Shown here: positions 1,178 through 7,576 of the stretch, one piece after another
Layout: each line of letters starts with the position of its first letter
Position numbering within the stretch: the stretch's first letter is position 1
From: Epilithonimonas mollis
GTDB lineage: Bacteria; Bacteroidota; Bacteroidia; Flavobacteriales; Weeksellaceae
Assembly (NCBI RefSeq): GCF_900142325.1
Contig: NZ_FRAM01000001.1
Span: forward strand, 1,550,001-1,614,000
Direction: 5' to 3'
DNA: 64,000 bases
Made by a program: the position numbers and the translations under genes
Notes under the pieces: generated by a model
Database searches by the model: none
Told to the model about the DNA's origin: nothing
Seen by the model: only the letters and a program-made list of their open reading frames with translations

Positions 1178-1213
1178 TAATCCGCCTCAAAATTGAAGCG
1201 GATTACTTTTTTT
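1178..1213. terminator. bidirectional intrinsic terminator
   Basis: Perfect 8-bp stem TAATCCGC (1178-1185) / GCGGATTA (1198-1205), 12-base loop, followed by seven T on the + strand; the other side is A-rich. It lies between the convergent ends of mnmA and the T9SS protein gene and can serve both. Confidence 0.85.
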
Positions 1214-4200
1214 ATCTCTTAATTATCTTGAATCTTTGCGATTTCGTATCAGTTTCAGCTTCCAGATAATATATTCCGGTAGTGAGAGATGTAACATCAA
1301 CACTACTATTATTTAAAAGAGATAGCATTTTAATTAATCGCCCATTACTATCGAATATTTTAACTTCTTTAATTTTATCCTGAGAATCAAAATGCAGGAA
1401 ATCAATCACAGGATTTGGATAAATTTTAATCTTAGTGAATGAATCTTCTTGGACACCTAACATTTCGCTTATTCTGAAACTATATAGTTCCGAATAAATT
1501 TTCTCAGACCCATCCATCGCAGAAATTTTGTAATAATAAATCTTGTTGATATCGAGTCCAGATAAAGTAAATTCAATTGGCTGAACAGCGTTTCCATAAA
1601 CATAATTTAGAACAACTGGCGACAAAGATCCCAAATCGGGAGTTAAGCCATATTCAAATTTTACTGATGTTAGAAACTTTTGACCAGCATATACCAATCC
1701 TTTCATTTTCACTGAGGTATTGTCTATCGGAACTACAGAATCTTTAATAAGAATTGGAGTGGTAGGACTAGTTGTAAATATTGAGTTTTCACTATAAACA
1801 ATTCTCCCGTTAGTTTTTCCACTTAGACGATAATAATATGGTCTGTTAGGATCTATTGAAGAAATATTGATTGAAGCATTAACCTGTTTGTTTGATAAAG
1901 CAACAACATTATCAGGTGAAGCAGCAACACTATTTTCAAAATCTAAGGTGCCGTACTCAAATTTCAATTCAGTAATATCTTTATAGTATGCATCTACAAA
2001 AGCATTTAAAAATATTTTTTCATTCGCAATCTCATTAGATATAGAAAAACTAAATTCCTGATTCGTAGTAAATGAAATGGTGTTGCTATAAACCGCGCTT
2101 CCTTTATAATGCCCTTTAATTCGAGCATAATATTTTGTCGCAGGTAATAAATTTACCAAATTTCCAGTCAATGTTTTTTGTCCAGATTCCTTTAATACCT
2201 CATTTGGCACAGAAACTACCTGATTGGAAAAATCTGTTTCCGTTAGTCCGTATTCAAAAACCAAATCTAATAAATCATCACCGTTTGCTGTTGCTAATCC
2301 CTCAAGTTTAACCTTTGAGGCATCACCATAAATCATTGGAGTCGATATATTTAGTGTGAAATTTTCAGTAGTAGTAAAGTTTTCAGTATTCCCATTGATT
2401 TTTAACCCGTTCCTTTTTGCGGTAAGTCGCACATAATATTTTTGGTTAGGTTGCAAACCTGAGACTGCACCAATAATATCTTTCGAATCATTAGAAGAAA
2501 CTTGGGAAAGATTCGCTTCAATATAAAAGGGTTGCGCAAAAAACTGTGTTGTACTAATTTCAAATTTTATATCTGTGAGTTCTTCTACTCCGTTATTCGC
2601 TACTGATCCCTTAAGTTTTGCCCTGTCATTAAAGTATTCAACAACCGGCTTTGTTACTACTACATTTTGTGGTACGTTTAAAAAATTTCCTCTTAAAATT
2701 CTGCCACCTTCTCCGGTAATATAAATTTTGTTATTTACAATTTTCAATGAGTTAAAAGAATAATGATTGCCGTCATATTTCCAGGTTCTACCTCCGTCAT
2801 ACGAGACATTTATTTGCCCTTCTTCATCTATTAAAACCCCTACATTCTTATTTAAAAATTTAATTTGTTTATACCATTCATAAGGTATTTGTTCCCTTAT
2901 CCAAGTTACACCACCATCTACAGTTCTGTTCAAATTTACATCCGGATCGCCAATTAAAAATCCGTTATTCTCATCTAAAAAAAAGAAATCAGCAATCTCT
3001 TGGTTGTCATAAGTAAACAATAAATTCCAAGATAATCCCCCATCAGAACTTTTGTAAAGATGACTGTAACTGGCTGCATAGATGATTTGTTCACTAAAAA
3101 TTTTGATAGAACGAAAGCTATATTGACCATTTAATTCCACCCAAGTCTCACCACCATCTGTAGTTTTGTACAAACCATAAGTCATCGTTCCTTGCCCACC
3201 ACAAATAATTCCAAAATTTTCGTTTAAAAAATCAAAACCAGTTAATCCAGAGGCAGAAAAATTCTTTTTCTTGGTCCAAGAAATTCCTCCATCGGTAGTT
3301 TTATAAAGGTTGGACTCGGTGTTATATTTACCACCAATTATATATCCTATATTATCCGAAACAAATTTCACATCTCTAGCATAAGGCTGAACCGATGTAG
3401 GCTGTAAATCATCTGGTCTACTAAGTTTCGACCAGTTTCCTCCGGAATCAGAAGTCTTAAATATATCAAGTCCAACTTTTGCGAAAATACTATTTTCTGT
3501 AATCTCTAAAGAGTTTACACTTGAATAAAATGGTGAATACTGTGTCCAATTGAAACCTCCATTATCTGTTCTAAGAATTCTTCCTGCAGAACCAACAATG
3601 AACCCTTTGTCTTCATTGAAGAAGTGCAAACCAAACATTGACGTTCCATAGATATACCCATTCTGAAAAAGACGAGTTTGCCAAGTAATTCCCCCATCTG
3701 TTGTTTTATATACCACCCCATATTCTCCCACAGCATAACCAATGCTTTCGGAAAGAAACTGTATGGCAAAAATATTTTCGCTGGGATTTGAGATTTTTAA
3801 CCAAGTTTCTCCAGCATCCACAGTTTTCATGACATTTCCATGTCCTTGCACTGCATAACCAATCTGTGTATTATAAAAATACATAGTAAAGTAATCTGAT
3901 GGAATAGTATTGCTCGAAATTTTTTGTGACCAAGAATTTCCGCCGTCTGTCGTTTTAAAAATACTTCCATTTGTAGTGCCCACAAAACCAGTATTTTTAT
4001 TGGTAAAGTAAACGATATTTGCTGCGCTTATATTAAACGTTTTTGTAATCCATGTTGTGCCGCCATCTACTGTAGAATAGATTTTATTTTTCGAAGCGAC
4101 AACAAAATTATCATTATCAAAAACCTTTGCATATATCAGATTATCCTGTGCTCCCAAAGTTTGAGTTTGCCAAGTAGAAGCTCGATCCTTAGTGATTGAT

Positions 4201-4475
4201 ACCTGACAAAAGTTTTGAGCAACAATTCCCACATCATTTAGTAAATCGAAACTGTTGGCGTAAGTAAAGTTTTTATTGACCGTCCAATTTGTACCACCAT
4301 CTTTTGTCTCGATTAGCTCCTTTCCTGTTAAAAAGAAACCTTGCATTTCATTAATAAAATGTAAATCCTTTCCTGAATTGTATGTTGGCTTTGGGCTTAG
4401 AACCTCCCAGTTGATTTGATTTTGTGAATAAATAAATACTGACATAAAAGTCAGCAGAAAGTATAGTTTTTTCAT
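1212..4475 (-). CDS. Secreted YCF48-repeat and fibronectin-like protein with T9SS type A sorting domain
   Basis: A 1087-residue predicted cell-surface or secreted protein. An N-terminal signal peptide (about residues 1-17, ending near IYSQ) is followed by a run of YCF48/BNR-type repeats with the recurrent core TTDGG-x-[ST]W (about residues 25-640), expected to fold as one or two beta-propellers. Then come about four FN3-like repeats, each with a core such as [IVL]KFEYG (about 650-1005), and a C-terminal sorting domain starting IYPNPVIDFLHF and ending with a basic KR-rich tail (about 1015-1087). The sorting domain directs export through the type IX system and cleavage or attachment at the surface. 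The ligand is unknown. It lies 38 bp downstream of a LytTR regulator and could be its last operon member, but it is also like other free-standing surface proteins. It shares its architecture with the protein at 32391-34691. Confidence 0.88.
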   Translation of the reverse strand: MKKLYFLLTFMSVFIYSQNQINWEVLSPKPTYNSGKDLHFINEMQGFFLTGKELIETKDGGTNWTVNKNFTYANSFDLLNDVGIVAQNFCQVSITKDRASTWQTQTLGAQDNLIYAKVFDNDNFVVASKNKIYSTVDGGTTWITKTFNISAANIVYFTNKNTGFVGTTNGSIFKTTDGGNSWSQKISSNTIPSDYFTMYFYNTQIGYAVQGHGNVMKTVDAGETWLKISNPSENIFAIQFLSESIGYAVGEYGVVYKTTDGGITWQTRLFQNGYIYGTSMFGLHFFNEDKGFIVGSAGRILRTDNGGFNWTQYSPFYSSVNSLEITENSIFAKVGLDIFKTSDSGGNWSKLSRPDDLQPTSVQPYARDVKFVSDNIGYIIGGKYNTESNLYKTTDGGISWTKKKNFSASGLTGFDFLNENFGIICGGQGTMTYGLYKTTDGGETWVELNGQYSFRSIKIFSEQIIYAASYSHLYKSSDGGLSWNLLFTYDNQEIADFFFLDENNGFLIGDPDVNLNRTVDGGVTWIREQIPYEWYKQIKFLNKNVGVLIDEEGQINVSYDGGRTWKYDGNHYSFNSLKIVNNKIYITGEGGRILRGNFLNVPQNVVVTKPVVEYFNDRAKLKGSVANNGVEELTDIKFEISTTQFFAQPFYIEANLSQVSSNDSKDIIGAVSGLQPNQKYYVRLTAKRNGLKINGNTENFTTTENFTLNISTPMIYGDASKVKLEGLATANGDDLLDLVFEYGLTETDFSNQVVSVPNEVLKESGQKTLTGNLVNLLPATKYYARIKGHYKGSAVYSNTISFTTNQEFSFSISNEIANEKIFLNAFVDAYYKDITELKFEYGTLDFENSVAASPDNVVALSNKQVNASINISSIDPNRPYYYRLSGKTNGRIVYSENSIFTTSPTTPILIKDSVVPIDNTSVKMKGLVYAGQKFLTSVKFEYGLTPDLGSLSPVVLNYVYGNAVQPIEFTLSGLDINKIYYYKISAMDGSEKIYSELYSFRISEMLGVQEDSFTKIKIYPNPVIDFLHFDSQDKIKEVKIFDSNGRLIKMLSLLNNSSVDVTSLTTGIYYLEAETDTKSQRFKIIKR

Positions 4476-4513: not shown

Positions 4514-5260
4514 TTACGATTTAATTAGCCAATCTTTAAAATCCTTCACTCGTTCTCTACTTACCGTAATCTCTTCATTCGGCTGGAAATCCAAATCGAC
4601 TTTGTAATTTGGGGAAGTATGGATGTTTTTAATGTAATCCGAACTGATGATAAACTGTCTATTGACACGGAAAAATTTGGTTTCGTCTAAAACATTTTCC
4701 AGTTCATCTAAAGTGAAATCTGTGGGATAATTTCGTTCTTTGGTTTGAAGGTAAACGATTTTATTCTCGCTGTAGAAACAACTGACTTCATTGATAGAAA
4801 CGACTTTAAGATTATAGCCGATCTTGACCAAAATTCTGGAAAGCGTCGATTTTTCTTTCCGAACAATTTGTCTGATTTCCTGAGAATTAACTGTTCCTTC
4901 TTCCGGCAGAAATGATTTAAACTTCTCAATGGCTTTTGCAAGATCTTCTTCTTCAATCGGCTTCAGAAGATAGTCTATGCTGTTGAGTTTGAAAGCTTTC
5001 AAAGTATATTGGTCAAAGGCTGTGGTATAAATGATAAAAGCTTTGGTTGAAACTTTATCAAAGATATCAAACGATAATCCGTCGCCTAAAACGATATCCG
5101 AAAAAATGAGTTGCGGATGTTCATTTTCCTGAAACCAACCTACTGCTTCTTCCACAGAATTAAGGCTTGCAACTACTTCTAAGTCAGAGAATAAACCTAA
5201 CAATTTTTCAAGCCTTCTGACTGCAGGTTTTTCATCTTCGATGATTATCGTTCTTATCAT
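4514..5260 (-). CDS. LytTR-family response regulator
   Basis: A 248-residue DNA-binding response regulator. The receiver domain (about 1-120) has the acidic pair ED at 9-10, phospho-acceptor Asp55 in IFSDIVLG, the switch Thr in YTTAF and the conserved Lys in LLKPI. The C-terminal LytTR domain (about 145-245) has the typical FYSENK...FFRVNRQFIIS core. It should be phosphorylated by the LytS-type kinase at 5910-7229, from which it is separated only by two small 2TM genes, all on the same strand. A pair of ACAGTTCAG repeats upstream of the kinase gene fits the binding mode of this family, suggesting autoregulation. Start is ATG with no visible Shine-Dalgarno. Confidence 0.95.
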   Translation of the reverse strand: MIRTIIIEDEKPAVRRLEKLLGLFSDLEVVASLNSVEEAVGWFQENEHPQLIFSDIVLGDGLSFDIFDKVSTKAFIIYTTAFDQYTLKAFKLNSIDYLLKPIEEEDLAKAIEKFKSFLPEEGTVNSQEIRQIVRKEKSTLSRILVKIGYNLKVVSINEVSCFYSENKIVYLQTKERNYPTDFTLDELENVLDETKFFRVNRQFIISSDYIKNIHTSPNYKVDLDFQPNEEITVSRERVKDFKDWLIKS

Positions 5261-5303: not shown

Positions 5304-5606
5304 TTATTTTTCTTTATCCATCAATTGCCGAATTTTTCTCTCTTCCCAATTTCTTCCTAAAATAAATTGCGGAACAAAAATACTCAACCCGTGCGCTATC
5401 AAACCTATTCCCCAAAAAAATAGAGTCATGAAATTTTTAGGTTGAAAATAACTTTCGCCCGGTTTTAAATCCTGATAATTAATAAATACAATCAGCAGGT
5501 TTACAAGGACATAAATCGCCACATGGGTATAAAAACCTTTGAGTCTTTTCACCCTTTTCCTGGCTTCGAGATACTTGATATTATCCCGATCATTAATAAT
5601 TTCCAT
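5304..5606 (-). CDS. Small 2TM-domain membrane protein
   Basis: A 100-residue protein that is essentially one 2TM domain (Pfam 2TM family): an amphipathic start with the motif ARKRVKRLKGFYTH, two membrane helices (about 26-45 and 61-82), then NWEERKIRQLMDKEK. It is a paralogue of the protein encoded just upstream (5593-5892), whose gene it overlaps by 14 bp, and of the C-terminal 82 residues of the histidine kinase. The tight packing argues for co-translation and a shared membrane complex or signalling role; the molecular function of 2TM domains is not established. Confidence 0.85.
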   Translation of the reverse strand: MEIINDRDNIKYLEARKRVKRLKGFYTHVAIYVLVNLLIVFINYQDLKPGESYFQPKNFMTLFFWGIGLIAHGLSIFVPQFILGRNWEERKIRQLMDKEK

Positions 5607-5892
5607 TGTTTTGTTTTTTGATTTCTTTGTTAATCATATCATTTTCCCAATCAGAATTTAAGAAAAACAACTTGATGCCTTTAATGACAAGAATCAATCC
5701 CCAGACGATAAAAACCCAGGAAATCTGCATCTCTCCAAGATTTTGTGGGAAACCGTGTTTGAAATATTTGATTCCGTAAATTACTCCAAATACGATGGCG
5801 AAAACCAAAAGTCCTGTGTAAAATTTTTTGATTTTTTGTACCCTTTCCACGGCTATTGCGTAACGTGGATTTTCTTTATTTATATTTTCCAT
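5593..5892 (-). CDS. Small 2TM-domain membrane protein
   Basis: A 99-residue 2TM-domain protein: AVERVQKIKKFYTGL start motif, membrane helices at about 27-45 and 58-76, then SDWENDMINKEIKK. It is the most divergent of the three 2TM copies in this operon; the charge-rich tail matches the pattern xxWExxxIxxxMxK of its neighbours only loosely. Its stop region overlaps the start of the next 2TM gene by 14 bp, and its start lies 17 bp after the kinase stop. A role as accessory or sensory partner of the kinase is inferred from position only. Confidence 0.83.
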   Translation of the reverse strand: MENINKENPRYAIAVERVQKIKKFYTGLLVFAIVFGVIYGIKYFKHGFPQNLGEMQISWVFIVWGLILVIKGIKLFFLNSDWENDMINKEIKKQNNGNY

Positions 5893-5909: not shown

Positions 5910-7229
5910 TTATTTCTGATTGTTCATTATTTCCTGGATCTTCTTTTCTTCCCAGTTTTTACCGATGGCAAAAGTGTTCATTCCGTGAGCCAGGATTCCT
6001 ATTCCCCATCCCAGCATCGGCCAGTAAAACCAAATTTCTTTTGGTGAAGTGATGAGGTTGATGATGGCCAAAAACGGAATCACAATGCAATATGAGATCA
6101 GGTTTCCGTAAAATCCCTTCAGTTCTTTTACTCTTTTTACGGCTTTCTCGTAAGCCATGTTTTCTGTGGATTGTGCTGTGTAAGTTGTCATTTGATGCGT
6201 ATCTTTTTTTATTAATATTGGAACTTTAACTTTAAAATTGTGTTCTGATTTTTCTATGAAAACATTCTCTTTTGTAAGCAATGCATAACGCTGGACGATG
6301 TTTGACAAACCGATTCCGGCACTTTCTGTCAGTTGCTCTCTCACCTGGAGATTATTCTCGATGCAAAGAAATCTGCCCTCCGTGAAGATTCTGATATTTA
6401 AAGGTCTGCCAGATGTTGCGAAATTATGTTTGATGCAGTTTTCTAATAATAATTGCAATGAAAGTGGAACAACCATTTTTTGCAAATCATCAGAATTGAT
6501 ATTAAAAGTGAAATCAACACTATCTTCAAATCTGGTTTTCAGAAGGTTGCAGTAGATTTTCGCAAATTCTATCTCATCCTCCACTTTTACCATTTCTTTA
6601 TCTTTCTGTTCCAGAACATAACGGTAAATCTTCGACATCGATGTCGTGAATTTCTGTGCCTGTTCTGGATTTTCATCAATCAAAGCGGTTAAGACATTAA
6701 GAGAATTGAAAAGAAAATGAGGATCCAGTTGATTCTTAAGCGATTCGAATTGGGCGTTGGCTGATTTTGCAATCAGCTTTTGTTCCACCACCTCTTTTTT
6801 CGTATTCTTTTTTAATTCTTCCATAAAGCCTTTGGCATGAAGAAAAGCTGAAATCATCAAGGCAAAGTTGATCATAAACCAAGTGGTAAAATCATACTTT
6901 CCGGATAAAAAATCTTCTGTGGAAGCCACTTTTTGGATTATAACATAGTTGACATAATTACAGGCATATACGACTATAAAATTGACTATAATGGTTGCTA
7001 TAATTCCCAGAATCGTTCTCAGTCGGGTTTGTTCCGTCCAGGAGAGTTTCTTATTTAGAAAATCATTTAAATAACCATTACTCAAGCCCAAGCTAAATGC
7101 ATATATAGAAGAAATCAACAGGTTGTATCCGAAGCTTTCCAACGTTTTTTCCTCAGAGAAAAAAGTGAAAAAAAAGATGGACGAACCGAGCGTTATCCAA
7201 GTTAGTGTTGTTAAAGGTTTTTTGTTCAT
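5910..7229 (-). CDS. LytS-type sensor histidine kinase with C-terminal 2TM domain
   Basis: A 439-residue membrane kinase. Four N-terminal membrane helices (about 10-24, 36-52, 72-96, 114-131) lead into a short coiled coil and a His_kinase (LytS/YehU family) domain with phospho-acceptor His171 in QLDPHFLFNSLN, then a HATPase domain with the N-box LLENCIKHN and the glycine box SAGIGLSNI. Kinases of this family usually end just after the HATPase, near the sequence KVKVPIL here. Instead this one continues into a complete 2TM domain (residues about 358-439) like the two small proteins encoded downstream. An in-frame ATG (6189-6191, residue 347) shows where a separate 2TM gene might once have begun. 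It should phosphorylate the LytTR regulator at 4514-5260. The signal is unknown. Confidence 0.92.
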   Translation of the reverse strand: MNKKPLTTLTWITLGSSIFFFTFFSEEKTLESFGYNLLISSIYAFSLGLSNGYLNDFLNKKLSWTEQTRLRTILGIIATIIVNFIVVYACNYVNYVIIQKVASTEDFLSGKYDFTTWFMINFALMISAFLHAKGFMEELKKNTKKEVVEQKLIAKSANAQFESLKNQLDPHFLFNSLNVLTALIDENPEQAQKFTTSMSKIYRYVLEQKDKEMVKVEDEIEFAKIYCNLLKTRFEDSVDFTFNINSDDLQKMVVPLSLQLLLENCIKHNFATSGRPLNIRIFTEGRFLCIENNLQVREQLTESAGIGLSNIVQRYALLTKENVFIEKSEHNFKVKVPILIKKDTHQMTTYTAQSTENMAYEKAVKRVKELKGFYGNLISYCIVIPFLAIINLITSPKEIWFYWPMLGWGIGILAHGMNTFAIGKNWEEKKIQEIMNNQK

Positions 7230-7246: not shown

Positions 7247-7277
7247 CAAAATTATTTCAATGCCAGAAGGTAAACAA
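7247..7277 (-). promoter_or_regulatory. Promoter of the LytS-2TM-2TM-LytTR operon
   Basis: On the minus strand a TTG (7275-7277) is followed after 20 bp by TAATTTTG (7247-7254), a full match to the Bacteroidota -33/-7 pattern TTG-N17-23-TAnnTTTG. The -7 box ends 17 bases before the kinase start codon. Confidence 0.75.
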
Positions 7278-7287
7278 TAATTATTTA

Positions 7288-7317
7288 CTGAACTGTAAAA
7301 AAACAAGGCTGAACTGT
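7288..7317 (-). promoter_or_regulatory. Probable LytTR response-regulator binding site (direct repeat)
   Basis: Read on the minus strand there are two identical 9-mers ACAGTTCAG (7309-7317 and 7288-7296) separated by exactly 12 bp, so 21 bp or two helical turns apart. With the flanking T-run identity extends to 14 bases. The arrangement closely resembles the direct repeats bound by AgrA, which carries the same LytTR domain. The site ends 10 bp upstream of the -33 element of the kinase operon, a typical activator position. The target regulator is inferred to be the one encoded in this operon. Confidence 0.65.
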
Positions 7318-7381
7318 AAAAATATCTCCAGACATAAAAAGGAACGCTATTTGCTTATTTGTTTTGACAAAAATTGTCTTT

Positions 7382-7576
7382 ATGAAGAATAGTATCGAAA
7401 TTATATTTGCAGGAATATTTGGGACAGCCGCTGTTCTGAGTGTGATTGCGGCCAGAAAATACTTTAAGAATAAAGTTTATAACAGCGATTATTCTGACCA
7501 TCATCTGTTATTCGGTTCACCGAGAAAAGCTTACGCTAATCCAAATGATGGTGTAGAATTGGACGCCTTTCTTTAG
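7382..7576 (+). CDS. Small hypothetical membrane-anchored protein
   Basis: A 64-residue protein counted from the ATG at 7382; an in-frame TTG lies 18 bases upstream but ATG is preferred. An N-terminal hydrophobic helix (IIFAGIFGTAAVLSVIAA, about 5-22) is followed by a basic stretch and a polar tail with SDHHLLFGSPRKAY. I do not recognise a family. It is divergent from the LytS operon and followed by a clear terminator, which supports it being a real single-gene unit. Confidence 0.6.
   Translation: MKNSIEIIFAGIFGTAAVLSVIAARKYFKNKVYNSDYSDHHLLFGSPRKAYANPNDGVELDAFL

Follow-up and report, generated by a model that had tools for sequence, protein, structure and literature searches.

The window, i.e., the whole 64-kb stretch of Epilithonimonas mollis DNA analyzed here, carries a sensor operon on its minus strand, a direct repeat and a promoter ahead of that operon, and a small divergent gene beyond them. 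The features, in window positions, are as follows.

7309..7317, minus strand: distal half-site ACAGTTCAG, read directly; conserved columns in the alignment
7297..7308, minus strand: 12-bp spacer between the half-sites (period 21)
7288..7296, minus strand: proximal half-site ACAGTTCAG, read directly; conserved columns in the alignment
7287-7278, minus strand: 10-bp gap from the proximal half-site to the -33 element, read directly
7275..7277, minus strand: -33 element TTG, read from the sequence
7247..7254, minus strand: -7 element TAATTTTG, beginning 42 bp past the start of the proximal half-site
5910..7229, minus strand: LytS-type sensor kinase, His_kinase (PF06580) with a C-terminal 2TM domain (PF13239) by Pfam
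5593..5892, minus strand: small 2TM-domain protein (Pfam)
5304..5606, minus strand: small 2TM-domain protein (Pfam)
4514..5260, minus strand: response regulator, receiver (PF00072) and LytTR (PF04397) by Pfam, presumed to bind the site
7382-7576: divergent 64-aa protein without a Pfam or NCBIfam match

The operon places a PF06580 kinase beside a receiver-LytTR regulator, the arrangement of a LytS/LytTR two-component system. Multi-TM sensor domains of the LYT type are typical of classical LytS kinases, and many PF06580 kinases lack them; in this kinase, Pfam at E 0.001 gives His_kinase and 2TM only and no LYT-type domain, so our claim is limited to the wider PF06580 kinase class. The best NCBIfam match of the regulator is BtsR, with 120.6 bits against an equivalog cut-off of 246, which rules out its assignment as BtsR; via its DNA-binding half, the regulator reaches one PDB structure, 3d6w (E 0.0005), and AgrA is not reached. 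The number of stand-alone 2TM proteins that follow the 2TM-tailed kinase differs between genomes, from one to several (L009-L088), and in two loci of genus g2 (L268 and L269) both kinase and regulator are present but no 2TM match is found. Directly following the regulator on its strand, positions 1212-4475 encode a 1087-aa protein whose start is signal-like.

Upstream of the kinase, the first-pass annotation had described two identical minus-strand 9-mers, 12 bp apart and 10 bp upstream of a -33/-7 promoter, and our reading confirms them at 7317-7288, where their period of 21 sets them two turns of the helix apart. The identical stretch around each half-site amounts to 14 bp (TTTTTACAGTTCAG, minus strand 7322-7309 and 7301-7288), exceeding the 9-mer given there. 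The promoter reads TTG-N20-TAATTTTG, followed after 17 bp by the kinase ATG at 7229 (minus strand); we take the TTG at -33 to be an element of the Bacteroidota promoter type. LytTR-type operators consist of direct repeats of about 9 bp with a gap of 11-13 bp, placed just upstream of the -35/-33 element. The gap here is 12 bp, and the repeats end 10 bp before this element in all four promoters of this genome listed below. The broad LytTR half-site consensus is [TA][AC][CA]GTTN[AG][TG], which ACAGTTCAG fits as judged by eye.

With up to 3 mismatches allowed, the 30-bp pattern has a single match in the 64 kb, an exact one, and 100 shuffles average 0.02. The exact pattern is unique in the 3.7-Mb genome, and the runner-up, with 2 mismatches, is a second regulon member. 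When the window was scanned with a weight matrix built from related promoters, the operator scored 26.7 bits; the second-best place reaches 13.3 bits and has no -7 box, the reversed matrix has a maximum of 10.2, and isolated matrix matches of 12-13 bits arise by chance, coding sequence included.

Conservation of the repeat at orthologous kinase operons

The kinase is present in all 23 genomes of the genus, and so is the repeat; its absence upstream of orthologous operons in sister species, which would have spoken against the first-pass annotation, was thus not observed (repeat in 23/23). The upstream regions of orthologous kinase operons at 103 loci gave 86 distinct sequences. Paired half-sites occur in 74 of these, all at a period of 21 with periods of 20, 21 and 22 permitted, and in 72/74 the TAnnTTTG box begins exactly 42 bp downstream, counted from where the proximal half-site starts. 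The exceptions are L047, which has no matching -7 box, and L056, in which the pair is located elsewhere.

The alignment comprises the 76 rows whose -7 box stands at the distance expected and could serve as anchor (24 Epilithonimonas-like and 52 Chryseobacterium-like; 10 of the 86 sequences were dropped). The 18 half-site columns average 1.80 bits in the Epilithonimonas-like and 1.26 bits in the Chryseobacterium-like rows, the spacer 1.33 and 0.78 bits, and the upstream flank 0.64 and 0.73 bits, respectively, so the column information content bears out the expectation that the site is conserved while its flanks drift. The most constant part of the half-site is the core xCxxTTCRG, and in Epilithonimonas a T-run ahead of each half-site is conserved as well. 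By matrix, the operator is found at 71 of 80 kinase operons in genomes of Epilithonimonas, Chryseobacterium and unclassified relatives, counts that, like the others given here, are not independent events, the genomes and loci being related by descent. All nine kinase promoters without a site (9/80) retain the receptor and 2TM sites of their own cluster.

Operator-bearing promoters across genomes

The pattern RCNRTTCRG-N12-RCNRTTCRG matches 54 times in the 23 genus genomes, versus once for the reversed pattern. All 54 matches were classified by fetched neighbourhoods and coordinates: 23 stand before the kinase operon, 14 before a gene for a TonB-dependent receptor, 8 before that of a 213-aa secreted protein and 8 before that of a secreted alpha/beta hydrolase, and 1 was assigned to none. 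The genome-wide repeat search that the first-pass annotation had proposed thus yields a small, coherent target set, with 53/54 matches before the same four genes. The operators in the own genome are located as follows.

C4:1557288-1557317: kinase operon (the operator in the window)
C5:29988-30017: receptor
C5:27548-27577: 213-aa protein
C5:124301-124330: hydrolase

All four promoters share the layout 9-12-9-10, then TTG, TTT, TTT or TTC, then 20 bp and TAnnTTTG. A composite pattern of operator and -7 box has four matches in the own genome, exactly the four targets, and none when reversed. Within the family, it occurs in 143/246 genomes, with no reversed match in any: in 142/208 genomes with the kinase (E 1e-70) versus 1/38 without (Fisher p 2.8e-15, not corrected for kinship), the sole match among genomes lacking the kinase at this cut-off being in G094. 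A strict site in G013 contig 20 (L164) and a composite match in G225 contig 8 (L237) adjoin none of the target genes and were taken as chance.

Most Chryseobacterium-type loci are clustered, with the receptor, the 213-aa gene, the kinase and 2TM, and then 2TM proteins and the regulator in sequence. In L040, the one locus that was read throughout, a putative methyltransferase gene of 189 aa separates the kinase part from the 2TM-2TM-regulator part. Divergently upstream of the receptor, L147 (6098-6598) and many Chryseobacterium loci carry a gene for a Cu/Zn superoxide dismutase.

A weight matrix was trained only on 76 kinase promoters, with leave-one-out scoring for those, and up to 300 bp upstream of each gene was scanned, counting sites of at least 10 bits. 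The matrix finds sites at 60/60 receptor promoters and at 55/55 separate 2TM units before the regulator (start approximated), and at 1/61 of the 213-aa genes, which usually follow the receptor in these loci. Among 132 control upstream regions, it finds none (0/76 for the regulator, 0/21 for the dismutase, 0/18 for the small gene and 0/17 for a radical-SAM gene), with a top control score of 0.9, and the reversed matrix gives 0 throughout. The -7 box follows 42 bp downstream at 69/71 kinase sites, and 42 or 43 bp downstream at 58/60 receptor and 51/55 2TM sites. Most receptor and 213-aa genes of Epilithonimonas are located apart from the kinase, and several copies bear their own operators, as a trans-acting regulator predicts. 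If the circuit proposed below is right, the operator matrix would allow the regulon to be read in other genomes.

At greater depth, the kinase is found in 91/296 order-level genomes (E 1e-60). In five other genera of the family, every locus examined (12/12, seven of them from one genus) has one or more operators with a -7 box before a target, and the operator before the hydrolase gene is seen again in two other genera, in three genomes (L235, L236 and L238). In another family of the order (f3, probably Flavobacteriaceae), an operator precedes the 213-aa gene in 7/20 loci, and 13/20 loci have no operator with a -7 box before a target gene; among 18 more distant loci, none (0/18) shows an operator with a -7 box. 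A wider matrix scan of 40 loci, one a 100-base stub, gave 62 places of at least 12 bits versus 1 for the reversed matrix; 32 of the 62 have a -7 box at 42-43, and 31 of those stand before a target gene, the exception being in L251.

Target proteins and possible cargo

The receptor combines a TonB-dependent barrel with a carboxypeptidase-regulatory-like domain, and its search against PDB sequences gave no match at E 0.01. At E 0.001, neither Pfam nor NCBIfam assigns the 213-aa protein to a family; it matches PDB 6bqs/6crl (P. gingivalis PG_2227) over residues 21-210 with E 2.3e-28, and 62/184 aligned positions are identical to HusA. By this comparison, the secreted 213-aa protein is homologous to HusA, a haemophore of Porphyromonas gingivalis. 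According to PMC6173696, 6bqs/6crl are structures of HusA, a haemophore-like protein whose TPR-like fold has a hydrophobic groove in which haem and porphyrins are bound, presumably to be handed to the TonB receptor HusB. The locus thus resembles the Hus haem uptake system of P. gingivalis in having a HusA homologue beside a TonB-dependent receptor (PMC6173696, PMC10100897), a likeness that, for the receptor, is one of gene context.

HusA-like proteins occur in 105/395 genomes of a phylum sample. From the 64 genomes with a match outside the order, we selected 18 distant HusA-like loci; a receptor relative adjoins the HusA-like gene in 18/18, and a LytS-type kinase and a LytTR regulator lie within about 1.2 kb after it in 4/18. 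Second, weaker HusA-like genes are present elsewhere in genomes G041, G079, G090, G099 and G107. Two of the eight strict sites before the 213-aa gene belong to G006 (L171) and G019 (L157), genomes of the genus in which the uptake genes appear to be in decay: receptor and 213-aa HusA-like gene match only as remnants, and the repeat persists before the HusA-like remnant.

The homology to HusA suggests haem or a porphyrin as cargo, with the chances about evenly balanced. It is just as conceivable that operator and regulon are real, but that the HusA-like fold binds a non-haem ligand and another nutrient is taken up: haem binding is proposed to have arisen within Porphyromonas, and close HusA relatives to be confined to that genus (PMC6173696), identity to HusA stands at 62/184, the groove residue F80 is not kept, and the hydrolase is not an obvious haem gene. 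However, the other groove positions (M116, L122, P126, W130, L157 and Y164) are mostly apolar or aromatic in 77 homologues, and the receptor relative accompanies the HusA-like gene in every distant locus (18/18). We advance only tentatively, at slightly less than an even chance, the full proposal that a self-activating LytTR system with 2TM partners is a dedicated regulator of HusA/HusB-type haem or porphyrin uptake in Flavobacteriales and partly beyond, in which sensing or gating would be the likely task of the 2TM proteins. If true, this would amount to a dedicated switch for HusA-type uptake in Flavobacteriales and would suggest a role for the 2TM family.

Regulator, mode of action and known systems

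The operator and its regulon are strongly supported as sequence-based predictions, and the reading of the repeat as a LytTR-type operator, made in the first-pass annotation, gains support from conservation and from the coherent regulon. Leaving the cargo aside, we regard it as very probable that an auto-activating LytTR operator and regulon drives HusB/HusA-like uptake genes. In the mechanism we propose, the direct repeat would be the operator of the response regulator encoded at the end of its own operon; a regulator dimer, bound to both half-sites from one side of the helix and 10 bp upstream of -33, would activate transcription, resulting in positive autoregulation. An equal operator at equal distance from the promoter would also drive the TonB-dependent receptor (HusB-like), the secreted HusA-like protein and the secreted alpha/beta hydrolase. 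Whether by need or by presence of the substrate, the 2TM-tailed kinase would be triggered to phosphorylate the regulator, so that uptake system and sensor both rise; as for the 2TM domains, they might, at a guess, partner or gate the kinase. This would turn an orphan two-component system, whose 2TM domain has no known function, into a testable circuit that comprises operator and promoter geometry, four target units and a candidate class of substrate.

The genome encodes ten LytTR domains, and overlapping LytTR regulons are known, as for HdrR and BrsR of S. mutans (PMC6193735), so that another of the ten proteins, or several, might read the site. We consider this unlikely, because the operator tracks the kinase operon (142/208 genomes with the kinase vs 1/38 without) and because 3.2-3.3 kb around each of the nine other LytTR loci contain no operator with a -7 box (best 13.2 bits), which points to the regulator of the kinase operon. 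It is very likely this protein (4514-5260), rather than one of the nine others, that reads the site.

As for the mode of action, we infer from the promoter position that the regulator activates its own operon. If +1 directly follows the -7 box, the centre of the repeat would fall near -60, the place reported for AgrA of Staphylococcus aureus (PMC4227749), and three of the four own promoters have no TTG at -33, as expected if an activator is needed. Together with the 10-bp gap, this position and the lack of TTG make activation, both of its own operon and of the uptake genes, the most likely role of the regulator, comparable to that of BtsR at a transporter gene. Repression appears improbable: position alone would be compatible with it, and AgrA does repress bsaA, but its site there lies downstream of the promoter (PMC4227749), whereas the present site stands upstream of -33 at a fixed distance, like those of AgrA-activated and LRS promoters, and the missing TTG in three of the four promoters also speaks for activation.

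The operator type is already known. According to PMC6193735, the repeats through which LytTR systems autoregulate typically have a 12-bp spacer and a distance of 10 bp to -35, and direct repeats mediate positive feedback in LRS operons. The present operon is like the LRS systems HdrRM and BrsRM in its two 9-bp direct repeats with a 12-bp spacer, 10 bp upstream of the promoter, and in the inferred positive feedback on its own operon (PMC6193735). However, an LRS consists of a LytTR regulator and a membrane inhibitor, with no kinase (PMC6193735), and the receiver domain and kinase found here rule out such an assignment; moreover, LRS-like repeats of Bacteroides are 11 bp with 11-bp spacers, whereas ours are 9 bp with 12 (PMC6193735). 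The AgrA system, similar in the position of the repeat, differs in promoter type (here -33/-7) and in targets, among which we saw no peptide quorum-sensing genes. BtsS/BtsR and YpdA/YpdB of Escherichia coli are likewise LytS/LytTR pairs that turn on transport genes (PMC5552118), yet here the targets are an outer-membrane receptor and a binding protein, and the kinase has a 2TM tail.

In open-licence PubMed Central papers, we found neither LytTR control of hus nor a LytTR circuit over HusA-type uptake genes, nor is this class of regulator connected with haem uptake in the papers found. HaeSR of P. gingivalis bound the hmuY, kgp and rgpA promoters, and husA is absent from the main text of that paper (PMC3764172). 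Judged by titles and the beginnings of abstracts, none of the open-licence publications found under '2TM domain-containing' deals with Bacteroidota two-component systems. Going by the text available, Riemerella RAYM_RS09735/09740 was ruled out as a studied orthologue, being of the BaeS/OmpR type (PMC5399024). On the same footing, we set aside a phage-shock paper that mentions LytTR and 2TM domains in another context (PMC11237479), an F. johnsoniae coevolution paper with a LytTR mutation of unknown role (PMC10197871) and an iron review whose LytTR protein is AgrA (PMC7139808).

That the repeat is a chance occurrence or serves the divergent 64-aa gene, with which it shares an intergenic region, is extremely improbable, given a chance expectation of 0.02 in the window, 18/18 relatives of that gene without a site oriented towards them, and 53/62 loci that keep the site without the gene. 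The link to the gene at 7382 suggested in the first-pass annotation is thus not upheld: the directional matrix finds 0/18 sites upstream of it, on which grounds we rejected it as a target, and the site does not follow its presence, the 62/80 loci without a relative being defined by tblastn at E 1e-8 within the fetched stretch. Likewise, no operator points towards the divergent Cu/Zn superoxide dismutase gene (0/21). A relative of the 64-aa gene is present in 18/80 loci, in most of which a radical-SAM gene lies beyond it.
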